Below the pieces are notes generated by a model, which ran no database searches, had not been told where the DNA came from, and saw nothing but the letters and a program-made list of their open reading frames with translations. From a virus, in IMG/VR virus record IMGVR_UViG_3300010158_000116, positions 1-45,656 of that record: DNA of 45,656 bases, one strand, 5' to 3'. Shown piece after piece: positions 5,837 to 39,591 of this stretch (positions within the stretch are counted from its first letter, which is position 1; the number at the start of each line of letters is the position of its first letter). The translations under genes were made by a program, and so were the position numbers.

Positions 5837-5926
5837 TTACCGCAACTCTTTTAGGGTCGCCATTGTAAGCGGTTCCAAGGGGGTAAAGGTCGCTGGCAAA
5901 CCCCCCACCCAATCGGAAACATTCAT
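5837..5926 (-). CDS. Possible micro-protein, 29 residues
   Basis: MNVSDWVGGLPATFTPLEPL followed by a short basic helix. The ATG overlaps the stop of the upstream gene in an ATGA arrangement, which is the only strong support. No motif. The following 55 bases up to the DUF3310 start hold a leader with a GGAG site. Confidence 0.35.
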   Translation of the reverse strand: MNVSDWVGGLPATFTPLEPLTMATLKELR

Positions 5927-8453: not shown

Positions 8454-9647
8454 TTATTCCGCTACAACCGCAGTAATTGGGATACCGAGACGGTGCAGGG
8501 CTTCGTTGGGCATTTCGACACCCTCGACCCACTCTTCGTAAATGCTCTCTGGGGCGGAAAAACCGTAATCGCCCACCTTGAATTTTACCTTTGGTTGCTT
8601 GGGCGTGGATTCACGACCTTCCAAAACCTCAGTGAAATCTTCGTCGTCAAAGCCCGTGCCCTCCAGCGAATCAAGGCTCTTTAGAACGCTACCGAGTAGG
8701 TCGTTGTCGTAGGTTGCTTTGTCCGCCGTGCGGTTATCCGCTAGAACAATTTTGGCAGCCGCCACTTCGTCCACGTCCACCCAAACCACAGCAATTTCTG
8801 TCCACCCAAGGGCTGAGGCGGCGGCGGCGGTATGGTTGCCCTTCAAAATCTCGTTGGTGCGTCGGTTTACAACTACGGGGCGATACTGCCCCAAAACCCG
8901 CAAAGACTCGCTCACAGCCCCTATATCGCCCTCACGGGGGTTCTTGTGGTATCGGCGTAGTTCCGAGAGGGGGACAAGTTCTGTGGCTTCCAGCGTGTAT
9001 TCAGCGGGTTTAGAGGTCTTTGCTTCCTTGGCTTCCTTGGGCTTTGGCGGGCGAGGTTCCTTGGGAACGTCAAGTCGTGCCCGCAGTTCCTTGTTGATGG
9101 CGGCTTTTTTGTCCCCCACAACCTCGATAATGGAGTTCAACCAGATTTCGTGGAGTTCGTGGTCGAGTTGCGCCCGCCACGCCCCAATGCGAATTGGAAC
9201 ATTGAGGTTCTCGATTTCGTCGGTTTCGTTTTTGGGCTGGGAAACGCCTCCGCCGGACGATTCGGACTCAGATTCCAATTCTTCCAGTATTGACGGGTCG
9301 TAGCCAGTTCCTTCGAGGTCGGGCAGTTCCCGCAAAAGGTCAATCAGGTATTGGTTGTTGTAGGTGGCAATGTCCGAAGTGCGGTTGTCGGTAATAAGTA
9401 CCCGCAGAGCGTCACTTTCCGAGCCTTCGTAGCGAGTAATGGCGACTTCCTTCCAGCCCAACGACTTTGCCGCCTTCCAAGTGTGCGTTCCGGCAATGAT
9501 TATGTCGTTCCACACAACCACGGGTGAGTATTGCCCATTGACGGTGAGTGATTCGGCAATCGCCGCCACGTCGCCCATACGGGGGTTTGAGGGGTGGGGC
9601 TTGATTGAGTCAATGGCGACTTTTTCCGCCCGAACGTTGATAGCCAT
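8454..9647 (-). CDS. Tandem double ParB-like domain protein
   Basis: 397 residues with two ParB-like domains in one chain. The first (about 1-110) has IKPHPSNPR, QYSPVVVW and GTHTWKAAKSLGW; the second (about 215-330) has SELRRYHKNPR, QYRPVVVN and GNHTAAAASALGW. Both are followed by a conserved DNRT(S/A)D..TY(N/D)N segment, so the pair comes from duplication. In phages such domains occur in ParB-type nucleases and in proteins linked to DNA modification; newer work on ParB shows CTP binding. There is no helix-turn-helix, so it is not a full partition protein. Leaderless start: TAGCCT 6 bases before the ATG. Confidence 0.85.
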   Translation of the reverse strand: MAINVRAEKVAIDSIKPHPSNPRMGDVAAIAESLTVNGQYSPVVVWNDIIIAGTHTWKAAKSLGWKEVAITRYEGSESDALRVLITDNRTSDIATYNNQYLIDLLRELPDLEGTGYDPSILEELESESESSGGGVSQPKNETDEIENLNVPIRIGAWRAQLDHELHEIWLNSIIEVVGDKKAAINKELRARLDVPKEPRPPKPKEAKEAKTSKPAEYTLEATELVPLSELRRYHKNPREGDIGAVSESLRVLGQYRPVVVNRRTNEILKGNHTAAAASALGWTEIAVVWVDVDEVAAAKIVLADNRTADKATYDNDLLGSVLKSLDSLEGTGFDDEDFTEVLEGRESTPKQPKVKFKVGDYGFSAPESIYEEWVEGVEMPNEALHRLGIPITAVVAE

Positions 9648-18032: not shown

Positions 18033-18569
18033 TCAGTCGCCTTGTGGCGCACTGAGAGACTCTACCACAGTTGATTTGAGAAGCGCAACATTTCCTGATT
18101 CAAGGGCAAATCCCTTGCTTGCGATAATTTGCTGGTCGGACTTGTTTTTGAGTTGTTCATACATTTTGTTGAACTGCGCTCGAACCGTCGTGATGTTATC
18201 CGTCTGGCAGATGTGCCAGTAACCCAATGCCTTGACGGTTTGACGAATCAAATCGTGCGACCAAGGGGGGCGAGCCTCAAACTGATAAACGCCGTAGCGT
18301 TCAGCCACGTCCTGCACTTCAACCCACGCCTCGGCCGGAGACGGGGCAAGAAATCCTTGTAACTCGGCGGACTTTTTGCGGAGAGCCGCCACACTCGGCG
18401 GACGTTCTTCGGTCAAAATCCATTGCGTCGCCGCTTTATGAATTACGGTGGCGGGAATGTCCTGCAGTGCCCTGTGAAATACCAGCACGGTTTCCTTGGG
18501 CGCACTCCACGACGGATATGCGCCTGCGATAATAGCCATCACCTCGGCTGTCTCTTGCGGTGTGGTCAC
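18033..18569 (-). CDS. Putative helicase loader / G39P-like replication protein
   Basis: 178 residues. The N-terminal helical domain (EVMAIIAGAYPSWSAPKETV, then FHRALQDIPATVIHKAATQW and RPPSVAALRKKSAEL) matches the pattern of loader-type proteins such as phage G39P, which deliver the replicative helicase to the origin. It follows the initiator gene with a GTGA overlap, the normal order for initiator and loader. No ATPase motif, which also fits G39P rather than DnaC. No replicative helicase is in the window. Confidence 0.6.
   Translation of the reverse strand: MTTPQETAEVMAIIAGAYPSWSAPKETVLVFHRALQDIPATVIHKAATQWILTEERPPSVAALRKKSAELQGFLAPSPAEAWVEVQDVAERYGVYQFEARPPWSHDLIRQTVKALGYWHICQTDNITTVRAQFNKMYEQLKNKSDQQIIASKGFALESGNVALLKSTVVESLSAPQGD
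18059..18088 (-). promoter_or_regulatory. Promoter: TTGCGC - 18 bp - TAGAGT
   Basis: Minus-strand -35 TTGCGC (18083-18088) and -10 TAGAGT (18059-18064) with CAACTGTGG before the -10 box; same spacing and near-identical -10 context as the promoter at 6659. It lies inside the end of the loader gene and drives the membrane-anchored protein. Confidence 0.65.
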
Positions 18570-19411
18570 TGAACTTCCTCCAAAAATTGTATGATTCCGC
18601 TAAAGCCCTTGGGCTGTGTCTTCTTGAAATCCTTTTCCGCCTGAAGACGAAGGCGGTCATACTGCTTACGCAACTTGGCGGGGCTGAGAATGTTAGCCCG
18701 CCAGAAATCGCTGGCTTGTGCCCAGCGAATCAGAACCTCGACCTCAACGGGGTCACGCTTGTCTATGCGAATGGTCTTCTCAATGTCTCGCACCCACGCC
18801 GCCGTAACCGTTGGGGGCTTACAGCCGTTCTCGACAATCAACGTGGCGAGCAGCGTCGCTAAACGGTGAGGCTCAACCCACTTGCCCGCAGTCAAATCGT
18901 TTGCGGTTAGTTCGTCGTCGTCAGGGTCATAAATCTCAGCCTCGACAACGACGAAAGAATCCGCCCCGAAGGGTGCGGCCTCCATTTCAGTTATTTCTAC
19001 TTCATCAGTATTTACTAATAAATCAGTTCTTACTATGTCTACGGGTTTGCCGTATACGGCTGAACCGTTTACGGTTTTACCGTATACGGTTTTGCCGACT
19101 ACGGTGGAATCGGAAATGTCGTGGACGATTCGTTCCATTTCACTAAACTCGCCACCTTCGCAGCGGGTCTGTTCCTGCGTGATGTAACCAGCCGTCTCTA
19201 GTTCGTTGAGGATTCGATAAACCTTCTCTCGACCAGCGGACGGCGATTCACTGATGAGGTGCTTTACGTTCACCTTCCAATGGTCGGGCTTGGATAGGAG
19301 ATAAACGAGAAGCCCACGGGCTTCCCAAGACAAGCGGGAATCGGTGATTGTCGGATTACTGACGATAGTGAAGTTCCTACGAAGGGCTGAGGGCGAACGA
19401 CGAATAGCCAC
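18566..19411 (-). CDS. Replication initiator protein with internal origin
   Basis: 281 residues. The N-terminal part is a winged helix (SWEARGLLVYLLSKPDHW, then GREKVYRILNELETAGYI), as in O/DnaD-type phage initiators. The middle (about 100-150) is a low-complexity linker whose coding DNA contains five 15-bp repeats, giving GKTVY/GKTVN/GSAVY/GKPVD units in the protein. The C-terminal part (WVRDIEKTIRIDKRDPVEVE, then FWRANILSPAKLRKQYDRLR) resembles the DnaD/replisome-organiser tail. The GTG start has AAAGGAGA upstream. The arrangement of initiator with origin inside and loader downstream mirrors the lambda O/P system. Confidence 0.75.
   Translation of the reverse strand: MAIRRSPSALRRNFTIVSNPTITDSRLSWEARGLLVYLLSKPDHWKVNVKHLISESPSAGREKVYRILNELETAGYITQEQTRCEGGEFSEMERIVHDISDSTVVGKTVYGKTVNGSAVYGKPVDIVRTDLLVNTDEVEITEMEAAPFGADSFVVVEAEIYDPDDDELTANDLTAGKWVEPHRLATLLATLIVENGCKPPTVTAAWVRDIEKTIRIDKRDPVEVEVLIRWAQASDFWRANILSPAKLRKQYDRLRLQAEKDFKKTQPKGFSGIIQFLEEVQ
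18985..19112. other. Predicted replication origin (iterons plus AT-rich region)
   Basis: Five tandem 15-bp units fill 19038-19112, and the neighbouring 18985-19037 is markedly AT-rich (long runs such as CAGTATTTACTAATAAATCA). This is the layout of the lambda origin, where the initiator binds the iterons and melts the adjacent AT-rich DNA. Prediction from sequence only. Confidence 0.6.
19038..19112. repeat. Five 15-bp iterons
   Basis: Units: TCTACGGGTTTGCCG, TATACGGCTGAACCG, TTTACGGTTTTACCG, TATACGGTTTTGCCG, ACTACGGTGGAATCG. TACGG is invariant and every unit ends in CG. Junctions create two CCGTATACGG palindromes. Confidence 0.85.
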
Positions 19412-19533: not shown

Positions 19534-20442
19534 CTACGAGGGAATGACCTCTTCGGCTTCGCCGTCCCCACCCTCAATGTAAGTCAGAAGGTCAATGACT
19601 TCCTGATAACGGGTTTCGGTGAGTTGCGCCACCTTCGGCAAGTTTGCCTCCGACCACGCCTTCTTCAACGCCGACTTAGTTTCGGGATTGAGGTTGGCAA
19701 TGCGGTTCTCGACAGCGTTGCGCTTGTTTGAGTCAAGCAACGGCTCGCCAGCGTTGAGCCACGTCGTGAACGTGTCCAATGCTTCCTGCGAGTTAGCCGG
19801 AGTAAAGGTGCGGTCAGCGAGAGCGACGCAACGGGTCTTTGATACGGAAGCACGGTGCTGAGCGTCAATGTCGAAGACGAGGGTGAACTCGTATTCGATA
19901 CCGTCACGCTGTTGCGGGGCGAGTCCGACTTTGCGAATTTCGGTCTTGCCCTTCTCGTTCTTGTCCATAGCCCACTCGGTCTTTGAGCGCATAGTGACGA
20001 CAATGTGCCCGTTGAACGAGAGCAGTGCGTCAATCATCTGCTGTTGAATCGGAGTGCCGACCGCCCACGCACGATACGAATTGTTGAGACGAGCGTTTGC
20101 TTCCTCAACAATTTCGAGAGTACCTCCCTTGCCCGACCAGAAGTGAGTAAGTGAGTCAATGACGACGACCGCATACTCTTCTTGCTCGGCAACACGAAGA
20201 ACCTCGACGAGACGCTGGGGGTTGTAGGGCGGTGAAAACGACAAGGTGTCGAAAGCAAACTTGTCTGCGTAGAGCGAAGCGGAACTGCGCTCGGTGTCTA
20301 TCACGGCAATCTTTCCGCCGTCAGCCAACTCGGTTGCCATTTGCAATGACCAATAGGTTTTGCCGGAACCGGACGGCCCGCTGAAAGCGACCCGTGCCTT
20401 TGCCTGCGACTTCTTTGCCTTGCTAAACAATGAACTACTCAT
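19534..20442 (-). CDS. Sak4/RecA-like phage ATPase (AAA_24)
   Basis: 302 residues. Walker A GPSGSGKT at 22-29, Walker B VVVIDS near 95, DTERS, and the conserved block VVTMRSKTEW place it in the phage nucleotide-binding AAA_24 family, which includes Sak4-type single-strand annealing or RecA-like recombinases. The C-terminal 70 residues are a helical tail. Very strong ribosome site (AGGAGG). It is divergently transcribed from the Gam-like gene, which suggests a joint recombination or end-protection module. Confidence 0.85.
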   Translation of the reverse strand: MSSSLFSKAKKSQAKARVAFSGPSGSGKTYWSLQMATELADGGKIAVIDTERSSASLYADKFAFDTLSFSPPYNPQRLVEVLRVAEQEEYAVVVIDSLTHFWSGKGGTLEIVEEANARLNNSYRAWAVGTPIQQQMIDALLSFNGHIVVTMRSKTEWAMDKNEKGKTEIRKVGLAPQQRDGIEYEFTLVFDIDAQHRASVSKTRCVALADRTFTPANSQEALDTFTTWLNAGEPLLDSNKRNAVENRIANLNPETKSALKKAWSEANLPKVAQLTETRYQEVIDLLTYIEGGDGEAEEVIPS

Positions 20443-20483
20443 TTTGAGCCTCCTGTATCTATCTGTCCTAATGTCCTGCGGTC

Positions 20484-20513
20484 AGTGTAGTGCGTAAACA
20501 CAACCCCCGTCAA
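20484..20513 (-). promoter_or_regulatory. Leftward promoter: TTGACG - 18 bp - TACACT
   Basis: Minus-strand -35 TTGACG (20508-20513) and -10 TACACT (20484-20489), with about 40 bases between the -10 box and the ATPase ATG, including AGGAGG. Close to consensus for a sigma70-type promoter. Confidence 0.7.
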
Positions 20514-20521
20514 GTCAAGAA

Positions 20522-20587
20522 ACCGTGGAACCCCCGTTTAGTAGTTTCCCTTGTACCGTGGAACCCCCGTTTAGTAGTTTCCCTTGT
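20522..20587. repeat. Perfect 33-bp tandem repeat
   Basis: Two identical 33-base units (20522-20554 and 20555-20587) in direct contact, each with GTGGAACCCCCG and TTAGTAGTTTCCC. They lie between two divergent promoters, so operator function is likely. Confidence 0.9.
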
Positions 20588-20598
20588 AATTACAGGGG
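20581..20598. promoter_or_regulatory. Candidate palindromic operator
   Basis: CCCTTGTAATTACAGGGG is an almost perfect 18-base palindrome overlapping the end of the second 33-bp repeat and lying about 24 bases upstream of the rightward -35 box. It could be a site for a dimeric repressor or activator. Confidence 0.45.
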
Positions 20599-20621
20599 TT
20601 TGAAGTTTCTTGTTCAATGAT

Positions 20622-20650
20622 TTGCAATCTTCACTCAACCATAGTAGAGT
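20622..20650 (+). promoter_or_regulatory. Rightward promoter: TTGCAA - 17 bp - TAGAGT
   Basis: -35 TTGCAA (20622-20627) and -10 TAGAGT (20645-20650) with optimal 17-bp spacing. It shares CTCAACC upstream of the -10 box with the minus-strand promoters. Confidence 0.7.
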
Positions 20651-20689
20651 TCACTACGTCACAACGACACGGACGCAAGGAGGAACCAA

Positions 20690-21062: not shown

Positions 21063-21638
21063 ATGGAAACCACTATTACCGAAATGTCGCTGGAAGACTT
21101 CCTTACCAGCGAGGCAACTCCCGAAGGCTTTGCCTTTGGCGAGGCGTTCACCATCAACAACGACGACGAGGCTCTGTGGGCTATGCGCTCACTGGCTCAG
21201 GCTCAGCGTTGTATTGACGAGGTGGAGCGTCAGGCTCAAATTGAACTTGACCGAATCAACCGTTGGGTCGAAGCGAACGTGGTCGGCAACACGCAGACCG
21301 TTGAATACTTTGACCGTATTCTTGGTGACTACCTAATGCGAGTTCGTGAGAACGACGCTGACGGGCGCAAGTCGCTGTCCTTCCCCGACGGCACAGTGAC
21401 GAGCCGTGTGACCCAGCCCAAGGTTGAAGTCACCGACCTCGAAGCGTTTTTGACGTGGGCGGAGTCCAACGGTCACGCCGAGTGGGTGCGTGTGAAGCGT
21501 GAGGCGAACCTTGCCGAAATCAAGAAGGGCGTGGACTTTGAAGAGTCCGCTGTCCTCGACCCGATTACGGGCTTACCGATTGACGGGCTTGCGCCTGTCG
21601 CTGGCGGTATCAGCACCTCAACCAAGGTGGCTGAGTAG
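21063..21638 (+). CDS. Gam-like host-nuclease inhibitor
   Basis: 191 residues. The central part fits the Mu Gam family: a long helix (QAQIELDRINRWVEANV), a FDRILGDYLMRVREND helix, the SLSFPDGTVTSRVTQPKVEV strand pair and the ALFT-like FLTWAESNGHAEWVRVKREA segment. Mu Gam binds double-strand ends as a Ku-like dimer and blocks exonucleases such as RecBCD; in actinobacteria AdnAB would be the likely target. The ATG at 21063 follows AAGGAG. It stands opposite a Sak4-like ATPase. Confidence 0.85.
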   Translation: METTITEMSLEDFLTSEATPEGFAFGEAFTINNDDEALWAMRSLAQAQRCIDEVERQAQIELDRINRWVEANVVGNTQTVEYFDRILGDYLMRVRENDADGRKSLSFPDGTVTSRVTQPKVEVTDLEAFLTWAESNGHAEWVRVKREANLAEIKKGVDFEESAVLDPITGLPIDGLAPVAGGISTSTKVAE

Positions 21639-24965: not shown

Positions 24966-27900
24966 CTAATTTACATAAGTGTAAGTAGGCGGCGCAGACT
25001 CCACGAACGGAATGGTTATTTCTCGATAAGGGTTCACGGCGGCGTGGTGAACAATTTGAATGTCCTGATTGACGAAGATGTAGCGACGCTCGTTCTCGAC
25101 GGGGTTGAGCAAGATAAAGATTTCACCACGCTTCAAGAACGCCAAGAACGCTTCCCACGTTGTCGGGTCTGTCCACATAACCTTCAGCGAGCCGTCTCGA
25201 CCCGTCACCACCCCAGGCACGGTCAGCGGATACGGAGAGCCAAGCGGGTAGAAGGTTCCCGCAGGGTGACGCTGGCTTTCGTCCATACCGTCCAAAACGT
25301 TGATAGCAAAGCGGATTGAATCGTCCGAGGTGCTGGCAATCCACCACGAATTGTTGGAAATCGTGTTTGCTTGCAGAGAGGCAGAACGAATACCGACCAC
25401 GCCTTTTCCGGCAGGTGTCGTGTAGGTCGGGGTTATGCGGTAAATTGTGGTTTGGTTTGGAATTGCCTCATAGTCAATGAGAGATGTGAACCCGCTGCTA
25501 TTTACTTGCAATTGACTACCACCACGAAGGGACGACCACGTTTGCCCTTGGTCTTCGCTGCGCTCAACCAAAACCTTGTAGGAAGTGTGGGTATTAGCAG
25601 TGTTCACCCAAGCGGCGGTGTTCCAATTGAAGACCGCAACCTGAGTTCCACTGTTTTGATTTTGACGAACCTGACCCGAAATACCGGCAGTCGCAGCATA
25701 AATCTGTGCGCCCTTCTTGTGGCTGAACCACAGGGGCGAAGCAAGCGTCACGGTTGCCGAACCGTTCCACGTCGAAGAAATGTTTACATATTCGACCTGA
25801 GACGAGCCAAAATCCACCGTCAGGGCAGAGTTGGCGGCAAGTCCTTCAACGGAATTCAAAATAATTGAGGTGTCGCCCACGTTTGCTGCGGAGGTCAGCG
25901 ACGACCAAAGGGCGGAGTTTCCACTGCCGTAGTGGATTTCACGGGTTCCAGCGTCGTTGGCGGGGTCAATGACGTAAATCGAGGCTTCACCCAACGTCGG
26001 AGTGCTACTAGGAATGGTCAAAGCATTGTTATTGGGCTGGTTGATAGCCCCTGTGACCACTGAGGACTGTAGGGTCGCCAGAGACGTGTTGAGGGGGCTG
26101 TAATCGCTTGTGGGGGCTGGGGCTTGCATAGCCTTGAACATCACCGCAGAGAGCGAATAGGCGTCCGTGTTGAGAACGTTTACCCATTGGAAGCGAGGAC
26201 AAGCGTAAGAGGCGGAAACGGTGATATTTCCAACAGTCGGCGGAACGGTTCCAGTGGTAAAACGAACTGCCATTGTGGTTGCGCCCTGAGCCGTGGTGGT
26301 CGTGGTAATAACGTTAAACGTGCCATTAAAGGTCAGCGGGGTTCCGGCTGAGATTGAGTGTGCCAGACCAATTGAGAAGTTGAGTTGTGCCGTTGAAGAC
26401 GTTACGCCCGAAGTCGTGGCGGCGTAGGCAAGAACGTAATTTTGCGGGGCGGTGGCGACCATAAACGCAGGACACCAACCCTGACCCCACACGTTTTTTG
26501 TGTCGGTCAAAACCGTCGCTGCGTCTTGAACAGGGTTCAACTTGGTTCCCGCAGTGAAATTGTTGTGAACGTAAATATTTATGTTTGTCAAAGAAGCGGT
26601 GGCATTGGCGGACATAGTGATTGTCGTGCCAGAAATCGAGGAAACCGTTGTGCCAGAGGGAATTCCAATTCCCGAAATCACCTGATTCACGGCGACGTTT
26701 GTAATGGGCGACACGTTGCTCAGTTGGTTGCTACCAGAGGTGATGTTTCCGGTAACAAGGGGCTTTGTCAGGCTTCGAGTGCCATTTGAAGTTGCAATTA
26801 AGTTGCCATAGGAGTCATACCAATCCACATAGGGCGTAAACAACGGATAATCCGGCGTGGAAATACCAGCCGTGCTGGGCACACGGGTTCCCTCAATCAT
26901 CTTCGAGAAGCCACCAAAACCGTAGGTGTTACCGGCATAAACCGGAACCGAGTTCGTAGCCGTCCAACCGTTCCACGACGCAGGGGCTAATGAAATCTCT
27001 GCGGTGAGCGGTGAAGCGTAGGTTCCTGATAGCGAAGGGTCAATCGTGGCGGTGTTCTGTCCAAAAATTGGCGGGTTGGTAATAACAATTGGGCAGTAAG
27101 CGTCGTAGTTGAAGTTGGAGTAGAAGGGCGTAACGGGAATACTCGTTGAACCGGCAGGAATTTTTTTAGCGGCGGGTGAGTAAAGAATTACATCAACCGT
27201 GCCAGAGAGCGTGAACGAGCCGGTAGAACCGTTGTAGCCCGTAGCGGCTTGCTGGCAAGAGTTACTCAGCGTCACCGTAAACGAGCCACCGCTCGACGCA
27301 GTATTAGAAACAACGTATGCGCCCGCAGGCATACCAACGCCTGAAATAATCCAACTTTGATAGGCGTTTGAGGCAACGCTGGTTGTAATCGTCGTCGTCG
27401 TTCCGTTGGCGGTTGCCTTGTTCGAAAGCGTGATTGAGTTGTTGATGTTGTTGATGTAGGTAATGGTGGTGCTTGACGGAATACCCGTTCCCGAAACGTT
27501 CATTCCAATCGTCAAACCACCAAGCAGGCTGGCGGAAATATTAGAAACAGTGGTCGAACCATTCGTGGTATTTCCGGTGAACGACGAGGTTCCAAGCGGA
27601 ATCGAGAGTGTCGTGTAGGGGTCGGACGGAATTACCGCATTTTTATAGGTGGCGTAATACTGCGTCAGACCAACATAGAACGTCTGATAGGTCTTGTTGG
27701 AAACTTGTTTTTGCGGGGTAAACCACTGCCCCTGAGCCGTTGAACCACCAACAACTTTGTTCGTGGTGAACTGCAACTTGTCGTTCTTTCTAACGGTCTG
27801 ACCCGCCCACTGACCTTGATTCAGAGACTTATCAAAAATGACCTTCTTGCGAGAAGCGTGACGGGGTGCGGGAACGTAGTGAACCATATTGCCGACAGGA

Positions 27901-30900
27901 ATTGCCGACATTTTTGTCCCAGGAATCGTATACATTGGGCACGAAGTCGTGGGAACAACGGGAATGTTCCACGTTGAAACACCGCCCGCAAACTGCCCGC
28001 CGGAAAAATTTGAAGCAACTGTAAAAATGGCTGCGACAGTTCGGCTTGTGTCTTGTGTTCCGTCCGCCTTGAAGGGGTGTCCAAAAACTTTGAAAATGTC
28101 GCCCTTGCGCCAACCGTCATCGTAGAGACGAGTGGCATTGGGGGTAGCACTGTTCAAGGGTGATACTGAAATATTTGTGTTTGTAACCGTCACCTTTAGG
28201 TGAGTAATAACTTTGACCTTGCCGGTGTGCTGGTCGGTTCCGCAAGCGTGGTCTTGTGACAAGTATCCAATTCGAACATCGGCTCCACCGGACGTAGTAG
28301 CACCCACAACGCTAATGATTTTTGCAGGTTCGGCTGATTGCGCCGAGGTCGGGGCGGTTTGCGTTGCCTTGGGCTGTATGAAAGTAACCGCTTGGCTGCT
28401 TCCGGCAGAGTTGAAGGTGTAATAACTCTTAGCCGCCGGAACCGTCCACGTCGAGTATTGAATTTGACAGTCGAGGCTTTGACCACTGCCAACGGGCAGG
28501 CTGTCGTTTGGGTCGTCAATGAGGACGTAATTCTTGTGCTGGTCGTTGCCTTCAACAATATTGTAAGAGTTAGTGACTGACTTGGAGTAAGTTCCGCCCG
28601 TTGCCGGTTCAACAATTTTCCAAACCGCCGTGCCGAGAACGGTGGTGTCGTAAGTAAATGACAAAATTCCATTACTGCCGGTGTAAATGGGTTGTTGCAG
28701 ACCATAAACAATTTGCGACCATTTGGAGTGCGTCAGACCCGTGCCGCCCGTGCCCGTTGAGTAGTTGTAGTTGCGGAGAATAATTTTGAACGTGTCCGCC
28801 TTAGTTTTGGAACCGTCCGAGAGGTTTTTCACTAAGATTTGCTCGGCGTTGGTTCCGTCGGCATTTTGGACAGTTACCCAAAATGGCGGGCTGGTCGGGC
28901 TGGTTGAGCCAATCGGAAATCCCGTTGCTTTGACGGTTGCACCATTGAGGCTCGACACGGAGAACGTGCCGGTTCCGGTGGTGGTAGAAAGCGCACCCAC
29001 CGTAGAGACGTATCCAGAAGCACCTACGGGAATTGAACTAATCAACTGACCTTTGGTGAACGAACTGCTTGAGTTGGTGGCGGTCTTGCCAAAATAAAGC
29101 GACGTTCCGGCGGTGTCGTTAGTTCCCTTGTGCCAACCACCCACGCTGGAACCAAAGTCGGCGTTGTTGTCGCCCAAAAGGTTGTCCGACACTTGAATCG
29201 CCAAGTGATTGACTGCGTTGGTGTTGTCTGTGAAAGCGGTCACAAGCGGTTGCTGTGGCTGAGTTACGAGCGTGGCAAAATACGCCGAGTTCCAATCACT
29301 CCACCACGCCTTCTGGTGGAAATCTTTGGAGACACGAACAAAAACCCAATAAAACTCGCCGCTAATGAACCGCTTTGTTCCGGTAAAACCGTCTGAAGTC
29401 AAGAAAACCGACGAAGCGTCGTTGTTGGCGGACTTTTTCCAAATTGGCGTTGAAGAGTTGGGGTCGAAAGCGGAGTTCTGATAAGTGAAATCGTCAAAGA
29501 CTCGAACGTCCCAGCCGGTCTGTGGGTCGTTTTCAACGTCGGAGTAAGTCCACCCAATGTAGGGGTTGGTACTGTCGGATATTTCCAAAATATCCGAAGG
29601 CGAGAGGTAAATACCGGCAACTGACGGGCCGCCTCGGAACGTAATCTGCATTGCGATTGCTCGGAGAGCAACGCTGGTGGACTGAGGAACAACAACCCGT
29701 GCGTTGAGCAAAACGTTTTGCAAAGAACTTGCCGACCATTCGTTACCGTTGGGGTCGGTCGGGCGAACATTACCGACGTTCACCGTGTAACTAGCGGGCG
29801 AGTTGTTCGAGAAACTGTCGGCAGTTCCCACCGCACCCGTCACGGGGTCTACAAGGGTGAAAATTTCTTTGTCTTTGTAGGACGAAGAAACTGCGCCAAG
29901 GACTGAGTAGACATTTTGAACGTTGTGGACACGGGCATAACTCCACCCGTTGCCGTCAAAGATGTAGAAACTGTCCAAATCGGGGCGGTAGGTAACGTCG
30001 CCAATGGCGGGATTTGTGGGGAACTCATACCATTCGAGGGTTGCGCCTGCGCTGTGGTTGTAAACCGTCGGGAAGGCAATTGGAAGGGCAAACGGCGGGG
30101 TTCCGGCGGTGATGTTCGAGGTGGAATACGGCAGAGCCGTGGGGTAGACGGTTTCTTGCACTGCGCCAGAATCCAAAACCAAGGGGTAGAGGTATTGAAT
30201 TTGCGCCGTGTTGTCGTAGGGGTAGTTCGGGTTGAACGGCTTTACGGAGAATGATGTAGACGTTTCAGGCGTGTAAGCGGTGACGGTCAATGTTTGGGTC
30301 GTGGTTCCATCACCGGAAGTAAGCAAAACAACGTCATTTTGATTGAGCGGAATGTTCAACCCGACGGTGATAATGGTGTTGTAGTTGGTAATTACACCAT
30401 TTGAGCCAATTACCGCAGGGAAATTGTGCGGAGGCTTAAAATATTGAATTGGAATTGTGGTTGAACCAGCGGGGGTGTCCTGCGCCACCGTAACAACTGC
30501 CGAGGCGGTTCCGTAAACGAGGTAAAGGTTCAAGCCATTTGTCAAAGCAATCGGCGTAGGTGTTGTCGTCAATGACGTAATGGGGTTTCCAATAACCACA
30601 TTGACCGTGGGGTAAAAGTAGGGGACGGATATTGAAGTAATGGTGCTGGATACGTCCATAACCGCCGTCGAAACGGGCGACAAATCGGGGTAGGTATTTG
30701 TTGTGGGCGAAGTCAGTGTAAAAACGTATGACGAAGTATTGTTCAAAATCGAGGAACACGTCAGCGTGTCTCCGTTGATAACGATTTGGAAGTTTGACGT
30801 TCCCGACAGGGCGATTGGTTGCTGAAAGCCAGAGGTGACGTTGATTGAAATTTGCGTTGAGCCGACGGGGGTGTTCCCAACCACCCGACCCAAAGAGCCA

Positions 30901-33900
30901 ATGGATAGTCCGATGGGGGTCTTTGTGGTGTCGTCATTTTGATTGTAAACCGAGGAATAAGCAGTGGGGAAGTCGTTTGCGTCGTCAATGGTGATAGAGC
31001 CGGAGCCAACGGTTGCCGAGTAAGTCAGCGTGGTGTTGATGTTGGGCTGACCGCTTACGCCAGACTGATACCAAGGCTGAGTGAAATTCATAGACGCATT
31101 TGTGGTGAGTGTCGTTTGACCACTTGGGTTTGAGGCGACAAGTGCGCCAGCGGTTAATACGCCGTTGTTGGCAACGGTTCCATTGTCTGCTCCACTGAGA
31201 ACGGGGGCATTCTTGCCGTGGTTGTTGGCAAAACTGCCAATAACGTTTGGAATGGTAACAGTTTCACCCGCACTGTGATTGTATTGAAACGACTGCCCTT
31301 CGGCAAGCGACCAAATTACCGCCCCAGCGTTGGCTTGTGTAATGTCGCTACCGTCGATTGTTGAATACGAGCCACTAATTACAACGGCTTCTTGCGTTTC
31401 GCCGTCGCCAACAATGACGACGTTGTTGGCGTTGCCGTAGGTCAAGTTTATGAAATTGGTAATGGGTGCAACGGGGCTTCCCGAACGTGCAGGCTTGTAA
31501 GAACTGCCCGAAGTCAGTCCGCCGTTTACAATTAACGCTTGCGAGGACTGAGAAACAATGTCGGAAAAAAGAGTTCCGCTAACGTATGAGCCGAGGAAGG
31601 CGGGGGCGACTGTTTCAATGTCTCCCGTCGTGCTACTGCCAAAATAACGATTGCCGGAAAGCCAACTGCCGACGGCGGTTCCCGCAACGTGCTTCTTGGC
31701 GATGGCGTCCACATACACACAACCAGAACCCGTATTTTGATATCCGGTGTTCGTAATCATTGAGCCGTCGGAATAACCAGCGGAGTTGTATGCAAAAAAC
31801 GAATTTTTGGCGTAGTCGCCGTTGGTGTAGGGGGTGGTAGCCAAGGTGTAAGCGGGGCTTCCCGTGTTAGCGACAAAATACGGTTGAGCAACGTTTACAA
31901 CGCCGCCACTGACGTAAACGTCCGTCTCCGTGCTACTGACGGTAAAGGTGTTTGAGGTTGTTCCCGTGATATTTACACCGACCAAGTTCAACGTCGTTGG
32001 GATAATGCCGGAAATGGTGACGGTCTGAAGCGTTGCAAGATTGTGCGTTGCGGAGGTCGTGTAAGTAACGGCAGAACCCGTGGTCGAAACTCCAATAATT
32101 GTCCACGACTGCGATTTTGTTGTGACCGTGTATAGAGCGTTGCGGAAGAGGTAGGTAGAGTTAATGTTTATATTTGCGGTGGAATCAACAAAGAACGTTG
32201 AGGTTCCGGTCTGTAATGACGTTGATTGAACCAACGTCGCCGCAGGAGTTTTTGCAAAGTTGGTCAAAGACAACGTGACTTTGCCATAGGGTGCAGTAAC
32301 AGAACCAACGTCCTGTGCCCGCCACGGGAAGGTTCGGAACTGACCATAAAAAGATGATTCGCCAATCTGCGAGCCGTCCAGAGTGCAAAAAGGATAAACC
32401 AACGAAGGCGTGAAGGTCGAAGACGAAACAAGCAACCAATTGCCGGAAACCGTGGTGCTTCCGCCGTTGGTGTCTATGGTTGAACTGCCGTCGGCAATAT
32501 TGACAGCCACATTGGAAGAAAGCGTCCCCGTGAAGGCGTTGGAGATAGTGAAATAACTTGTGTCCGCCAAATATGCCGATACAGAGCCGCCCGTTGAAAG
32601 GTGTGAACTACCGTCGGTGGCGAGGCTCCACGTTCCCGTCAGCGTTCCACCAGACGGGTTGGTTGCACGGGTAATGGTGAACTGCGTAGAGGTGGCAGAA
32701 ACAACCTTTTCGCCGGTGGCCACGTTGAAGTTGGTGGTTCCCGTGACCGTGATGTAGTCGCCCGCTTGCAGGTTGTTGCCTGCGGTATAAGTCCAAGTGT
32801 ATAGGCCTCCACCAGCCGCCGAAGAAGAAACGGTAGTGATAGAACCGTAGGCGGTTTTGGAAATGTTGAATGACGTGGACGAGGGAACGCTTGAAATCGT
32901 GTAAGTGCCGTTGATGTAATTTCCACCCGACAACGTAACTTGTTGCCCAACAACAAAGGGGTGCGCCGACGAGGTGGCAACCAAGCACCACGCTTCGTTG
33001 TAAGGGGAAGAATTAGTTACGATTGACGTAACTGCATATGAAGGTAAGGAGACACCCGCACTGCCAACGCTGGGGATTCCGGTAACGGTGGTGCTGGTGG
33101 GGATTCCACTGCCCGTAATCGTTGTACCAATGCTCGGTGAGTATGAACCGCTAGTCAAAGACATTGGGTTCTGAGTAGAAACCGTCGAACCCGTAATCAA
33201 CTTGTTTTGTAACGAAGAAGGGGTGGTAATCGAAAAGGCTTGGCCAGGGCTGGCGTAGGTATATGAACCTTGTGCGCCCGTGTTGATGTAAATTGCGTTG
33301 TTGGCAGCGTCCACGCCTACAACCGTGGACGCTGCAAGGTATCCGCCAATTACCCCAAACGCCATTCCGACTTGGATACCCACTGTGCTATTTACAATCA
33401 AACGGGTAACGGCATTTATCATAATTCCAACCGCCCCAACGCTGGTGGTGGTGCTAGTGCTGGAAAATGTAAGAGTGGTGGAACTATTGACGGTTACAAC
33501 GGTGTAAAAACCCGTGTATGCCGAAATGTTCGCAAACGAAATCAAGTCGCCAACCGAACGTCCGTGGGCGGTTCCCGTTACCAAAACGGCATAATAGTTA
33601 GTAGGTGAACCAGCGGCTGTAATCGAGGTTACGGTGTGTAAGGTAGAGGCATACGAGGCTGTGATATATCCGGTAATGGTCGGGTTTTGAAATTGCGTTG
33701 TAAACGTTGCACCAGAAATGGGTGCGGAAATCGCTTGACCAATTAAGGTTCCACCAGCGTTGGTGGGGTCGTAGAGATTATCTCCGCTAAGAACCGACGG
33801 GCTGGGAATTGGGGTGTTGATGTATCCCGTGTTGTCGAGGTAGTCAAAGAGGATAAAACTCTTTGGGCTTCCAATGGTTGCACCGGCAATTTCGTGATAT

Positions 33901-35483
33901 TGAGCGGTTGCGCTGATACTTGCACCCGACATTGCGCCATAAATGGAAACAATGTAAGCGGTTCCGCCACCGTTGGACGTTCCCGTTGTCGAATTGGTGA
34001 CGGTGAACTGCGAACTGTCTGCGTATGCGATAGTCGCATTAGAGAGGTTGAGCGAGGGCGTATCGGTAAGACCAATAATCGTGACCGCCTGACCCGCCAC
34101 AAAAGAGTTGGGTGCGGTGTAGGTGACTGTCGTTCCATTACCCACAGCCGACGAAATCAAAGCGGTGGTAGAAACCGACACGCTTACATAGTCGGTTGAA
34201 GAAACCGTCGTGGAATAGTTGTAGGAACTAGGCGTTGCGCCAGAAATCGTAATGGGCGTTCCAACGGGCTTTTGAAGGTAACTGTCGTTCCACCCAATTT
34301 GGAAATATCCCAAAGTGGCAACTCCCGTTTGCCCCGTCAAAGTGCCGGAAGCATTGGAACTAACGGTAAATTGCGTCGAGGTTGCGGTGGCAACCGGAAC
34401 GTTCGTCAGGTTAAACGCCGAGTTCGTTAGCCCTAAAACGGTAACTACGTCGCCCACGGAAAAGTTGTTGCTTGCGGTATAGGTGACTGTCGAAATACCA
34501 TCACCACTTGCGCCCGTGATTTGAGCGGCATTTTTCACTGTAGAAAAATTACTTGACGTGGTGGCGTTGGTGCTGGTGTTTGACTGAGTGTCCTGCAAGG
34601 TTAAATAACCTGCCGACACCGCTGTAATTACACCAAGGTAATTCGAGTAAGAGTCTGTAAGCGTTTGCCCAACAACAAAGTTGAGTCCGTCGTTGTTTGG
34701 AAGAAAAACAACGTTATTGGGAATTGTTACTGTTACGGTTCCCGCACCCGTGGTGGGGGCAGAAATGGTAATTTGCTTTGACGAACCAATTGAAACAATG
34801 GTTGCACCGGACGGAATGTTTGTTCCTGATACCGACATACCTACGGCAAGGTTGGCGGTTGAAGAAACGTTGGTCAAAACTGCAGTCGAACCGTCCGTGG
34901 TTGCAGTCAGCGTCCACGGCAAGTTGGTGTAATAACCAGATGAGAGCGTGTAGTCGGAGAAAAGGCGACGCATAACGGCTTGCGGAACGTCTGGTGGAGT
35001 AGAAAAATTCATTGTGATTGGGGTTCCGCCACCAATGGTGTCGGGGTATGGAACCGCAGTCCACGTTGGAACGTTTGTGGTGGGAATCAAACCAACCGAT
35101 TGAATGTTGGCTTGCTCACTGTAAAAATTGTCCGTTGAGGTATTACCACCATAACCTTCGATAACGGCAAGATTTTGACCCTTTTGGAAACCAGCAACCT
35201 CATCTATGAAAAGCCACGATTGGTCAGCACCCTTGGGAAAGTCGTTTGCGTAAATCGCACTGCCGATAAGGGTGCTATTAGTTGTTGTGGAAAAGCCGGT
35301 GAAAAAACGAGTAATGTCCTCAACCTGAATAGAACTGTAAAGCGAAATGCTATCCAAAATGTTGCCAGCGGCAACTTTGGTCAGGGTTGAAAGTGCTGAG
35401 GCTGCGTCGGACGTTTGCGGAACAGACCACCCTTGGTCGGTCTGGGCATTGGCGTAATTGGGGGCTGCAGTCAGAATCCTCAT
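24966..35483 (-). CDS. Giant modular tail protein, 3505 residues
   Basis: The largest gene of the window. The N-terminal 150 residues look like an attachment domain. Residues about 200-1100 and 2650-3000 are chains of small beta modules of two types: GM.VSGTGIPSGT followed by TLS.ATA, and a VTYTA...GD.VTV.GL...STQFTV type. Residues about 1750-2150 have Tyr/Trp-rich segments compatible with fibronectin type III-like folds (GEFYWVFVRVSKDFHQKAWW). The C-terminal 130 residues (HPAGTFYPLGSPYPLTVPG, LKVMWTDPTTWEAFLAFL, GEIFILLNPVENERRYIFV) match the distal-tail-like domain of actinophage minor tail proteins. Position after the tape measure gene supports a distal tail and host-recognition role. The frame is unbroken over 10.5 kb. 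Confidence 0.9.
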   Translation of the reverse strand: MRILTAAPNYANAQTDQGWSVPQTSDAASALSTLTKVAAGNILDSISLYSSIQVEDITRFFTGFSTTTNSTLIGSAIYANDFPKGADQSWLFIDEVAGFQKGQNLAVIEGYGGNTSTDNFYSEQANIQSVGLIPTTNVPTWTAVPYPDTIGGGTPITMNFSTPPDVPQAVMRRLFSDYTLSSGYYTNLPWTLTATTDGSTAVLTNVSSTANLAVGMSVSGTNIPSGATIVSIGSSKQITISAPTTGAGTVTVTIPNNVVFLPNNDGLNFVVGQTLTDSYSNYLGVITAVSAGYLTLQDTQSNTSTNATTSSNFSTVKNAAQITGASGDGISTVTYTASNNFSVGDVVTVLGLTNSAFNLTNVPVATATSTQFTVSSNASGTLTGQTGVATLGYFQIGWNDSYLQKPVGTPITISGATPSSYNYSTTVSSTDYVSVSVSTTALISSAVGNGTTVTYTAPNSFVAGQAVTIIGLTDTPSLNLSNATIAYADSSQFTVTNSTTGTSNGGGTAYIVSIYGAMSGASISATAQYHEIAGATIGSPKSFILFDYLDNTGYINTPIPSPSVLSGDNLYDPTNAGGTLIGQAISAPISGATFTTQFQNPTITGYITASYASTLHTVTSITAAGSPTNYYAVLVTGTAHGRSVGDLISFANISAYTGFYTVVTVNSSTTLTFSSTSTTTSVGAVGIMINAVTRLIVNSTVGIQVGMAFGVIGGYLAASTVVGVDAANNAIYINTGAQGSYTYASPGQAFSITTPSSLQNKLITGSTVSTQNPMSLTSGSYSPSIGTTITGSGIPTSTTVTGIPSVGSAGVSLPSYAVTSIVTNSSPYNEAWCLVATSSAHPFVVGQQVTLSGGNYINGTYTISSVPSSTSFNISKTAYGSITTVSSSAAGGGLYTWTYTAGNNLQAGDYITVTGTTNFNVATGEKVVSATSTQFTITRATNPSGGTLTGTWSLATDGSSHLSTGGSVSAYLADTSYFTISNAFTGTLSSNVAVNIADGSSTIDTNGGSTTVSGNWLLVSSSTFTPSLVYPFCTLDGSQIGESSFYGQFRTFPWRAQDVGSVTAPYGKVTLSLTNFAKTPAATLVQSTSLQTGTSTFFVDSTANININSTYLFRNALYTVTTKSQSWTIIGVSTTGSAVTYTTSATHNLATLQTVTISGIIPTTLNLVGVNITGTTSNTFTVSSTETDVYVSGGVVNVAQPYFVANTGSPAYTLATTPYTNGDYAKNSFFAYNSAGYSDGSMITNTGYQNTGSGCVYVDAIAKKHVAGTAVGSWLSGNRYFGSSTTGDIETVAPAFLGSYVSGTLFSDIVSQSSQALIVNGGLTSGSSYKPARSGSPVAPITNFINLTYGNANNVVIVGDGETQEAVVISGSYSTIDGSDITQANAGAVIWSLAEGQSFQYNHSAGETVTIPNVIGSFANNHGKNAPVLSGADNGTVANNGVLTAGALVASNPSGQTTLTTNASMNFTQPWYQSGVSGQPNINTTLTYSATVGSGSITIDDANDFPTAYSSVYNQNDDTTKTPIGLSIGSLGRVVGNTPVGSTQISINVTSGFQQPIALSGTSNFQIVINGDTLTCSSILNNTSSYVFTLTSPTTNTYPDLSPVSTAVMDVSSTITSISVPYFYPTVNVVIGNPITSLTTTPTPIALTNGLNLYLVYGTASAVVTVAQDTPAGSTTIPIQYFKPPHNFPAVIGSNGVITNYNTIITVGLNIPLNQNDVVLLTSGDGTTTQTLTVTAYTPETSTSFSVKPFNPNYPYDNTAQIQYLYPLVLDSGAVQETVYPTALPYSTSNITAGTPPFALPIAFPTVYNHSAGATLEWYEFPTNPAIGDVTYRPDLDSFYIFDGNGWSYARVHNVQNVYSVLGAVSSSYKDKEIFTLVDPVTGAVGTADSFSNNSPASYTVNVGNVRPTDPNGNEWSASSLQNVLLNARVVVPQSTSVALRAIAMQITFRGGPSVAGIYLSPSDILEISDSTNPYIGWTYSDVENDPQTGWDVRVFDDFTYQNSAFDPNSSTPIWKKSANNDASSVFLTSDGFTGTKRFISGEFYWVFVRVSKDFHQKAWWSDWNSAYFATLVTQPQQPLVTAFTDNTNAVNHLAIQVSDNLLGDNNADFGSSVGGWHKGTNDTAGTSLYFGKTATNSSSSFTKGQLISSIPVGASGYVSTVGALSTTTGTGTFSVSSLNGATVKATGFPIGSTSPTSPPFWVTVQNADGTNAEQILVKNLSDGSKTKADTFKIILRNYNYSTGTGGTGLTHSKWSQIVYGLQQPIYTGSNGILSFTYDTTVLGTAVWKIVEPATGGTYSKSVTNSYNIVEGNDQHKNYVLIDDPNDSLPVGSGQSLDCQIQYSTWTVPAAKSYYTFNSAGSSQAVTFIQPKATQTAPTSAQSAEPAKIISVVGATTSGGADVRIGYLSQDHACGTDQHTGKVKVITHLKVTVTNTNISVSPLNSATPNATRLYDDGWRKGDIFKVFGHPFKADGTQDTSRTVAAIFTVASNFSGGQFAGGVSTWNIPVVPTTSCPMYTIPGTKMSAIPVGNMVHYVPAPRHASRKKVIFDKSLNQGQWAGQTVRKNDKLQFTTNKVVGGSTAQGQWFTPQKQVSNKTYQTFYVGLTQYYATYKNAVIPSDPYTTLSIPLGTSSFTGNTTNGSTTVSNISASLLGGLTIGMNVSGTGIPSSTTITYINNINNSITLSNKATANGTTTTITTSVASNAYQSWIISGVGMPAGAYVVSNTASSGGSFTVTLSNSCQQAATGYNGSTGSFTLSGTVDVILYSPAAKKIPAGSTSIPVTPFYSNFNYDAYCPIVITNPPIFGQNTATIDPSLSGTYASPLTAEISLAPASWNGWTATNSVPVYAGNTYGFGGFSKMIEGTRVPSTAGISTPDYPLFTPYVDWYDSYGNLIATSNGTRSLTKPLVTGNITSGSNQLSNVSPITNVAVNQVISGIGIPSGTTVSSISGTTITMSANATASLTNINIYVHNNFTAGTKLNPVQDAATVLTDTKNVWGQGWCPAFMVATAPQNYVLAYAATTSGVTSSTAQLNFSIGLAHSISAGTPLTFNGTFNVITTTTTAQGATTMAVRFTTGTVPPTVGNITVSASYACPRFQWVNVLNTDAYSLSAVMFKAMQAPAPTSDYSPLNTSLATLQSSVVTGAINQPNNNALTIPSSTPTLGEASIYVIDPANDAGTREIHYGSGNSALWSSLTSAANVGDTSIILNSVEGLAANSALTVDFGSSQVEYVNISSTWNGSATVTLASPLWFSHKKGAQIYAATAGISGQVRQNQNSGTQVAVFNWNTAAWVNTANTHTSYKVLVERSEDQGQTWSSLRGGSQLQVNSSGFTSLIDYEAIPNQTTIYRITPTYTTPAGKGVVGIRSASLQANTISNNSWWIASTSDDSIRFAINVLDGMDESQRHPAGTFYPLGSPYPLTVPGVVTGRDGSLKVMWTDPTTWEAFLAFLKRGEIFILLNPVENERRYIFVNQDIQIVHHAAVNPYREITIPFVESAPPTYTYVN

Positions 35484-38868: not shown

Positions 38869-39591
38869 TTACAGAATCGAGCGGGTCACGACACCCGTGA
38901 CCTGCAATTCGCCGTCAAACGAAATCACAGCGTTCACGCCCGACTTCAAGTCATACTTGTTCAGGAGAGCCTGACCGTAGAAGACAACCGAAGGGGTCTG
39001 ACCCGTAAACGCCCCAGGCGTCGAAGGCCCGTAGATGAACGAGATGAACTTGCCAGCGTCCTGAAAAGAAATCAGCGAGTTCATAATTGCGTCAGTTCCA
39101 CCCGTGGTGGTCGAAGAACCGGCGGTGGGGTCATACATACCGGCAAACGTAATCGTGTAGGCCTTCAGACCCACAATGTAGGTCTTTACACCAGCCTGCG
39201 AGAACGTGGTCGTCTCAGGGGTTTCTATTTGCGTCGGGAACGAAACGTCGTTGATGAAGGGCGAGAGGTTCACCATAGGAAGCACGGGGCTTCCTGCAGC
39301 AGCGGAAACCGAAGAGGGTGACACCGAGAGGGTGTAGGACGTCGTGGCGGTGGCAAACGGGGTTGCCGTGCCAACGGGGATACCGTTCACGAACGCACCG
39401 TAGACCGTCGAGGTCGGGGTGGAAATCGCCTTGTCCGCTAGTGAAATACCGCCAGCGAGCAAAGTTCCCGCCGTGGGGGTCACGGTCAGCGAACCACTCG
39501 TAATCGAGCCTGTGTTTATCGTAGCGGCACTTGTTTCGTAGCCAATTGCCAGAAACCCGTTCTTACCGTGTTGGAAAGCAGGAGTAGCCAT
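38869..39591 (-). CDS. Major tail tube protein, copy 2
   Basis: 240 residues. Shares with the gene just upstream the start MA(G/T)P.F.HGKN, the block ETTTF..(S/A)GVKTYI.GLK, the IT.AG.YD motif and NKYDLK..V.AVI.FD.E near the C-terminus, so the two are tandem paralogues. Position before the chaperones supports the tail tube role. Which copy is the tube and which a decorated or minor form cannot be read here. Confidence 0.8.
   Translation of the reverse strand: MATPAFQHGKNGFLAIGYETSAATINTGSITSGSLTVTPTAGTLLAGGISLADKAISTPTSTVYGAFVNGIPVGTATPFATATTSYTLSVSPSSVSAAAGSPVLPMVNLSPFINDVSFPTQIETPETTTFSQAGVKTYIVGLKAYTITFAGMYDPTAGSSTTTGGTDAIMNSLISFQDAGKFISFIYGPSTPGAFTGQTPSVVFYGQALLNKYDLKSGVNAVISFDGELQVTGVVTRSIL

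Follow-up and report, generated by a model that had tools for sequence, protein, structure and literature searches.

The DNA analysed here (the window, 45,656 nucleotides) is an IMG/VR virus record. It runs colinearly with part of a longer contig of 113,659 b, from position 5869 to about 51525. Its minus strand carries an initiator gene that contains an array of short repeats and an AT-rich block, together with a loader-like gene and an ATPase gene:

18033..18569, minus strand: helicase-loader-like gene (G39P-like), with a 4-bp overlap with the end of the initiator gene
18566..19411, minus strand: initiator (replisome-organiser) gene, 281 aa
18982..19035, minus strand: predicted unwinding element, an AT-rich block made of three direct repeats of 18 bp, TAGTAAGAACTGATTTAT, TAGTAAATACTGATGAAG and TAGAAATAACTGAAATGG
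19031..19105, minus strand: iteron array with a pitch of exactly 15 bp, made up of four full CCG-N4-CGG dyads followed by a half unit, putatively bound by the initiator
19534..20442, minus strand: RecA/Sak4-like AAA_24 ATPase, upstream of the initiator in the same replication/recombination module

A sequence-only reading of the window had proposed an initiator gene with a loader-like gene downstream, and profile searches bear this out through winged-helix and G39P-like matches. The initiator N-terminus (aa 11-90) matches PHROG 4707 'replication initiation protein' (2.8e-19) and the C-terminus (aa 183-268) matches PHROG 2514 'DnaD-like helicase loader' (3e-22). The winged helix is of the HTH_36 type, for which the Pfam match is weak and below the cut-off while the PHROG matches are strong; an NCBIfam search returned no match. 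AlphaFold lays the protein out as a winged helix (aa 1-100), a disordered linker (aa 102-181, pLDDT 22-33) and a helical DnaD/O-like C-terminal domain (aa 182-264), and a fold search of this low-confidence model against the PDB gave weak matches only, the best being Geobacillus primosomal DnaB (0.011) and RctB domain 1 (0.075). The downstream gene matches PF11417 Inhibitor_G39P just under the curated cut-off (E=1e-3), phrog_2289 'helicase loader' (6e-8) and phrog_9804 (1.7e-24). The upstream ATPase matches PF13479 (1.8e-23), phrog_1366 (1e-81) and the Sak4-like phrog_124 (1.1e-8), and a Mu-Gam-like gene also lies upstream of the initiator.

The array had been described as five 15-bp repeats of exact period. 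The exact 15-bp period holds, yet the units differ from one another, and the array is therefore better described as four full units, ACCGTAGTCGGCAAA (19105-19091), ACCGTATACGGTAAA (19090-19076), ACCGTAAACGGTTCA (19075-19061) and GCCGTATACGGCAAA (19060-19046), and a degenerate fifth, the half unit CCCGTAGACATAGTA (19045-19031), all on the minus strand. Tandem Repeats Finder (TRF) reports 4.4 copies with 76% matches. That the four full units are dyads had been overlooked by the sequence-only reading. Two of them contain perfect 12-bp palindromes, ACCGTATACGGT and GCCGTATACGGC; in these the first and last bases change together (ACC..GGT and GCC..GGC). The pentapeptide pattern that it had pointed out in the linker is present as TVVGK TVYGK TVNGS AVYGK PVDIV. 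The repeat and dyad structure of the array nevertheless exceeds what the protein sequence forces. When synonymous codons were permuted according to the phage genome's own usage in 20,000 shuffles, unit identity reached 76.5+-3.9 against 101 in the real array (0/20,000 as high), with 0.88 CCGN4CGG cores against 4 (P=0.002) and 0.07 perfect palindromes against 2 (P=0.001).

Directly after the iterons, positions 19035-18982 hold three 18-bp repeats of TAGTAArwACTGA. The claim of an AT-rich block beside the repeats is confirmed and can be extended: the 50 bp from 18983 have 24% GC, the minimum of the window and of the entire 113,659-b contig. This element recurs in relatives of the initiator, whose linkers contain 87 copies of AAGTACTGA compared with 29.1+-4.9 in shuffles, spaced 15-19 bp apart in most relatives. 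The copies occur in mixed frames, with AGT ACT GA and AA GTA CTG A inside one gene, and in one clade all three have switched jointly to AAGTACTAT. The codons CTA GTA AGT ACT are retained across distant hosts, including GC-rich Pseudomonas genes. The last CGG and TAGTAA are 14 bp apart in the window and in relatives L061 and L116, and 12 bp apart in relatives with P-type pentapeptides. In 47 of 52 clusters the AT region falls within the lowest 2% GC of its own locus, compared with 22% for random regions; among the protein-found clusters, some relatives are without a clear array or AT element.

A sister class of short winged-helix genes (about 90-136 aa; L055, L058, L061, L063, L068, L075, L080, L086, L116, L117, L123) presents another arrangement. 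In these genes the linker region contains a single CCGN4CGG dyad together with DnaA boxes, of which there are usually three. The AAGTACTGA element comes after them, at or just past the end of the gene, and is non-coding in several members.

Comparison with relatives, asking whether DNA or protein is conserved, had been set beforehand as the test able to refute an origin at this site. The idea survives it, with frozen synonymous sites and two reading frames in use. Against a relative with 85% protein identity (L005), the array shows synonymous differences in 0 of 32 codons and the rest of the gene in 54 of 200 (Fisher P=1.7e-4), a test that is not decisive alone because initiator codons 1-55 are also slow, so that conservation near the array could partly come from local recombination. 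A broader sample of 45 clusters discovered by protein only gives a summed best three-unit dyad score of 370 versus 288.6+-4.8 in synonymous shuffles, the clusters being interrelated and the independent observations therefore fewer than 45.

In these 45 clusters the frame of the dyads differs between clades. The clade of the window has them in frame 1 and reads xCC GNN NNC GGx, giving T-V-Y-G-K, whereas other relatives have them in frame 0 and read CCG NNN NCG Gxx, giving P-D-T-A-N. In a Vibrio-like branch CCT-N4-AGG replaces CCG-N4-CGG, a compensatory change (CCTAATCAGG). At least two CCGN4CGG units at 15-bp pitch are carried by 97 of 122 non-redundant winged-helix relatives, a set that takes in loci found via the DNA pattern; 75 of these arrays are in frame 0 (P-type pentapeptides), 22 in frame 1 (G-type) and 0 in frame 2. 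The tree of relatives requires at least nine frame changes, with forks that are poorly resolved. When viral contigs were scanned by DNA only, for two iterons followed by TAGTAA, the array lay in the sense frame of a winged-helix open reading frame at 72 of 80 loci among the matches listed. Since relatives keep the signal in another frame with a different peptide, these comparisons indicate that the conserved entity is the DNA and not the peptide.

Origins within initiator genes are already known from 80alpha, SPP1 and lambda, and by homology the probable window origin appears to join the 80alpha/TP901-1 organisers. Profile comparison places 80alpha ORF20 and TP901-1 Rep as the closest CHARACTERISED relatives of the window initiator. 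The replisome organiser ORF20 of Staphylococcus phage 80alpha has a homologous winged helix (window-family profile 3.5e-22) and, like the window, palindromic units at 15-bp pitch (TCCAACGTTGGA, ACCGTTAACGGT, ACCAACAATGGA, ACCGTTAATGGT). These units lie in the same frame, TCCAACGTTGGA/ACCGTTAACGGT giving VGKTVNGKTNNGKTVNGK and the four-unit run coding NVGKTVNGKTNNGKTVNGK; as in the window, the lowest-GC stretch is just downstream of the units and a loader gene comes next. Genetics embeds the 80alpha origin in this gene, since an ORF20 deletion is not complementable in trans, and ORF20 together with ORF21 drives plasmid replication (PMC5499656). The 80alpha gene differs from the window in its more variable units (CCAAC..GTTGG besides CCG..CGG), in an AT block built of ACTAATAAT repeats rather than AAGTACTGA, in its Phg_2220_C C-terminal domain and in a DnaC-like loader.

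Lactococcus phage TP901-1 Rep also has a homologous winged helix (window-family profile 1.7e-20), and its linker carries AAATACTAA/AAACACTGA/AAATACTGA at about 15-bp pitch, matching the AT element of the window family. Unlike the window initiator, it has a C-terminal DnaB_2 domain, and CCGN4CGG dyads were not found in it. The repeats of TP901-1 Rep are reportedly essential for replication.

The Bacillus phage SPP1 system (gp38/oriL/gp39), compared by description, likewise has direct repeats and an AT-rich DUE in the initiator gene. SPP1 gp38 binds repeats within its own gene beside the DUE, and gp39 is the loader (PMC6316719); the window loader matches the G39P model. SPP1 differs in having a helicase of its own and, as a second origin, oriR, whereas a second, oriR-like array was looked for across the 113.7-kb contig and not found.

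The sequence-only reading had likened the site to the lambda origin. The comparison holds for the way the site appears to work, given its anatomy, its conservation at the DNA level and its homology to 80alpha, but does not extend to the protein family. It is exceedingly improbable that the window initiator is truly homologous to lambda O and has an origin of the lambda type, even though the two share a layout of DNA-binding domain, origin in the linker and loader (P in lambda) downstream, the iterons being followed by an AT-rich block that in the lambda O gene too is its lowest-GC stretch, and even though the window C-terminal domain matches PHROG 'O-like' families. Phage_rep_O (PF04492) matches lambda O (5.7e-36) but gives no match to the window initiator up to E=1, and conversely the winged-helix profile of the window family does not match lambda O. 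The iterons also differ: those of lambda are 18-19 bp long and of the ATCCCTCAAAACGAGGGA type, spaced 20-24 bp, with starts in all three frames, whereas those of the window are 15-bp CCGN4CGG units.

Bacterial origins built on DnaA boxes, the DnaA-trio and the DRE resemble the window in having a TAGTAA-rich strand beside binding sites, and the sister class sets a window-type AT element beside DnaA boxes, as in such origins. The window site does not fit a DnaA-dependent oriC-type origin, in which DnaA boxes stand beside the unwinding element: the window contains no perfect TTATNCACA, and no one-mismatch copy lies near the site. The window AT element, a 13-mer-like repeat, also differs from the trinucleotide run of DnaA trios. 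DnaD binds single-stranded DNA opposite DnaA trios, at TnnT-type motifs (PMC10201434). Because the C-terminus of the initiator is DnaD-like, we consider as a lead that the TAGTAA strand may be analogous to the DnaA-trio strand, its complement having TACT motifs of the TnnT type.

Taken together, the anatomy, the DNA-level conservation in relatives and the homology to the genetically mapped 80alpha origin support the reading that the site is very probably the replication origin of the phage, lying within its own initiator gene where the linker is encoded. The winged helix of the initiator would bind the palindromic 15-bp iterons, probably as dimers, and the assembled nucleoprotein complex would melt the adjoining AT-rich block, which contains the three 13-mer-like repeats. 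The opened strands would then receive the replicative helicase from the DnaD/O-like C-terminal domain and the G39P-like loader. The pentapeptide repeats of the protein would mostly be a by-product of iterons crossing a disordered linker. GC skew, which had been proposed as a check, lends no help here: neither in the window nor in the 113.7-kb contig does it reach a sharp minimum there, and it is confounded by gene strand.

Two other explanations leave the site without a role in initiating replication. The repeats might be a feature of the protein, a flexible linker of pentapeptides that slippage has expanded and whose DNA has no role of its own, as the pentapeptide pattern in most relatives and the long disordered linker in the AlphaFold model would allow; yet synonymous sites are frozen, the same DNA yields unrelated peptides in two frames even inside one gene, palindrome changes are compensatory and the AT element is still conserved where it is non-coding, all of which makes this explanation very improbable. 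Alternatively, the dyads might be operators through which the initiator autoregulates or blocks transcription of its own operon rather than starting replication. Many Rep proteins autoregulate, and palindromic sites within the gene of a winged-helix protein would suit such a role. We regard it as quite unlikely, since the sites are in mid-gene and adjoin, at a spacing of 12-14 bp, a uniquely AT-rich repeat block, and since the same cassette is present in rep-like genes of small plasmids and the homologous 80alpha gene is needed in cis for replication (PMC5499656).

Beyond the window, the iteron/AT cassette in small plasmids is illustrated by a 13-kb Brevibacillus plasmid, in which one gene contains the 10-mer CCGGATACGG twice without a mismatch, first in frame 0 and then, 34 bp further, in frame 1. 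Five further plasmids were inspected, each with at least one CCGN4CGG-type dyad. Winged-helix relatives are found on 228 plasmid records of a plasmid collection, many from Leptospira, Streptomyces and Piscirickettsia, and the cassette may be the replicon of these plasmids. Isolated phages with window-type iterons include Pseudoalteromonas phage PHS3, Burkholderia phage CSP3, which also has three AAGTACTGA copies, and Microbacterium phage Cinna (CCTACGCAGG). Pseudomonas phage JBD68 was considered as a model and rejected: its initiator, which neighbours DnaC, is a different protein, whose repeats (GGGTGCAA) are 22 bp long. This protein (gp54, L249) occupies the same gene position and has its repeats in the linker, so another type of in-gene repeat exists.

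We consider it likely that CCG-N4-CGG dyads at 15-bp pitch, a gap of 12-14 bp and two to three melting repeats of the TAGTAAGTACTGA type form a single portable cassette that is kept at the DNA level in phages and plasmids from many phyla, that shifts frame within winged-helix initiator genes and whose melting element also serves the DnaA-box origins of the sister class. Because the cassette moves between frames, the G-type (TVYGK) and P-type (PDTAN) repeats of 'helix-turn-helix' proteins would be its readable trace, which would explain pentapeptide repeats in so many phage proteins of that name. With this sequence rule, replication origins could be located directly in phages and phage-like plasmids that lack annotation. 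If the melting element does serve both settings, the unwinding element can be separated from the protein responsible for opening it, and the occurrence of common melting repeats in iteron-type and DnaA-box-type origins of related phages makes it testable whether unwinding is governed by the DNA element or by the initiator. Searches of the literature for the motif sequences and for the topic, of limited coverage, found no description of the iteron or of the AT element; within that coverage, a frame-independent, phylum-spanning DNA origin code with a shared melting element is apparently undescribed.

The proposal that the virus is an actinophage is plausible but unproven: among named phages, the major tail protein at 39605-40561 matches Arthrobacter phages only, yet relatives of the initiator span many phyla. 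This gene and its neighbour at 38869-39591 each match major tail protein families, and a 3505-aa open reading frame amid tail-protein genes (24966-35483) matches no PHROG at 1e-5. A ParB-like partition/nuclease gene (8454-9647) lies in the half of the window that also contains the initiator. A 16-bp tandem repeat, CCGATTGACGGGCTTA, lies at 21561-21590 within the Mu-Gam-like gene, outside the origin pattern. The divergent intergenic region 20443-20689 contains a perfect 33-bp tandem duplication (20522-20588) whose unit, ACCGTGGAACCCCCGTTTAGTAGTTTCCCTTGT, has no other occurrence across the 113.7-kb contig and is possibly the operator of both divergent operons.
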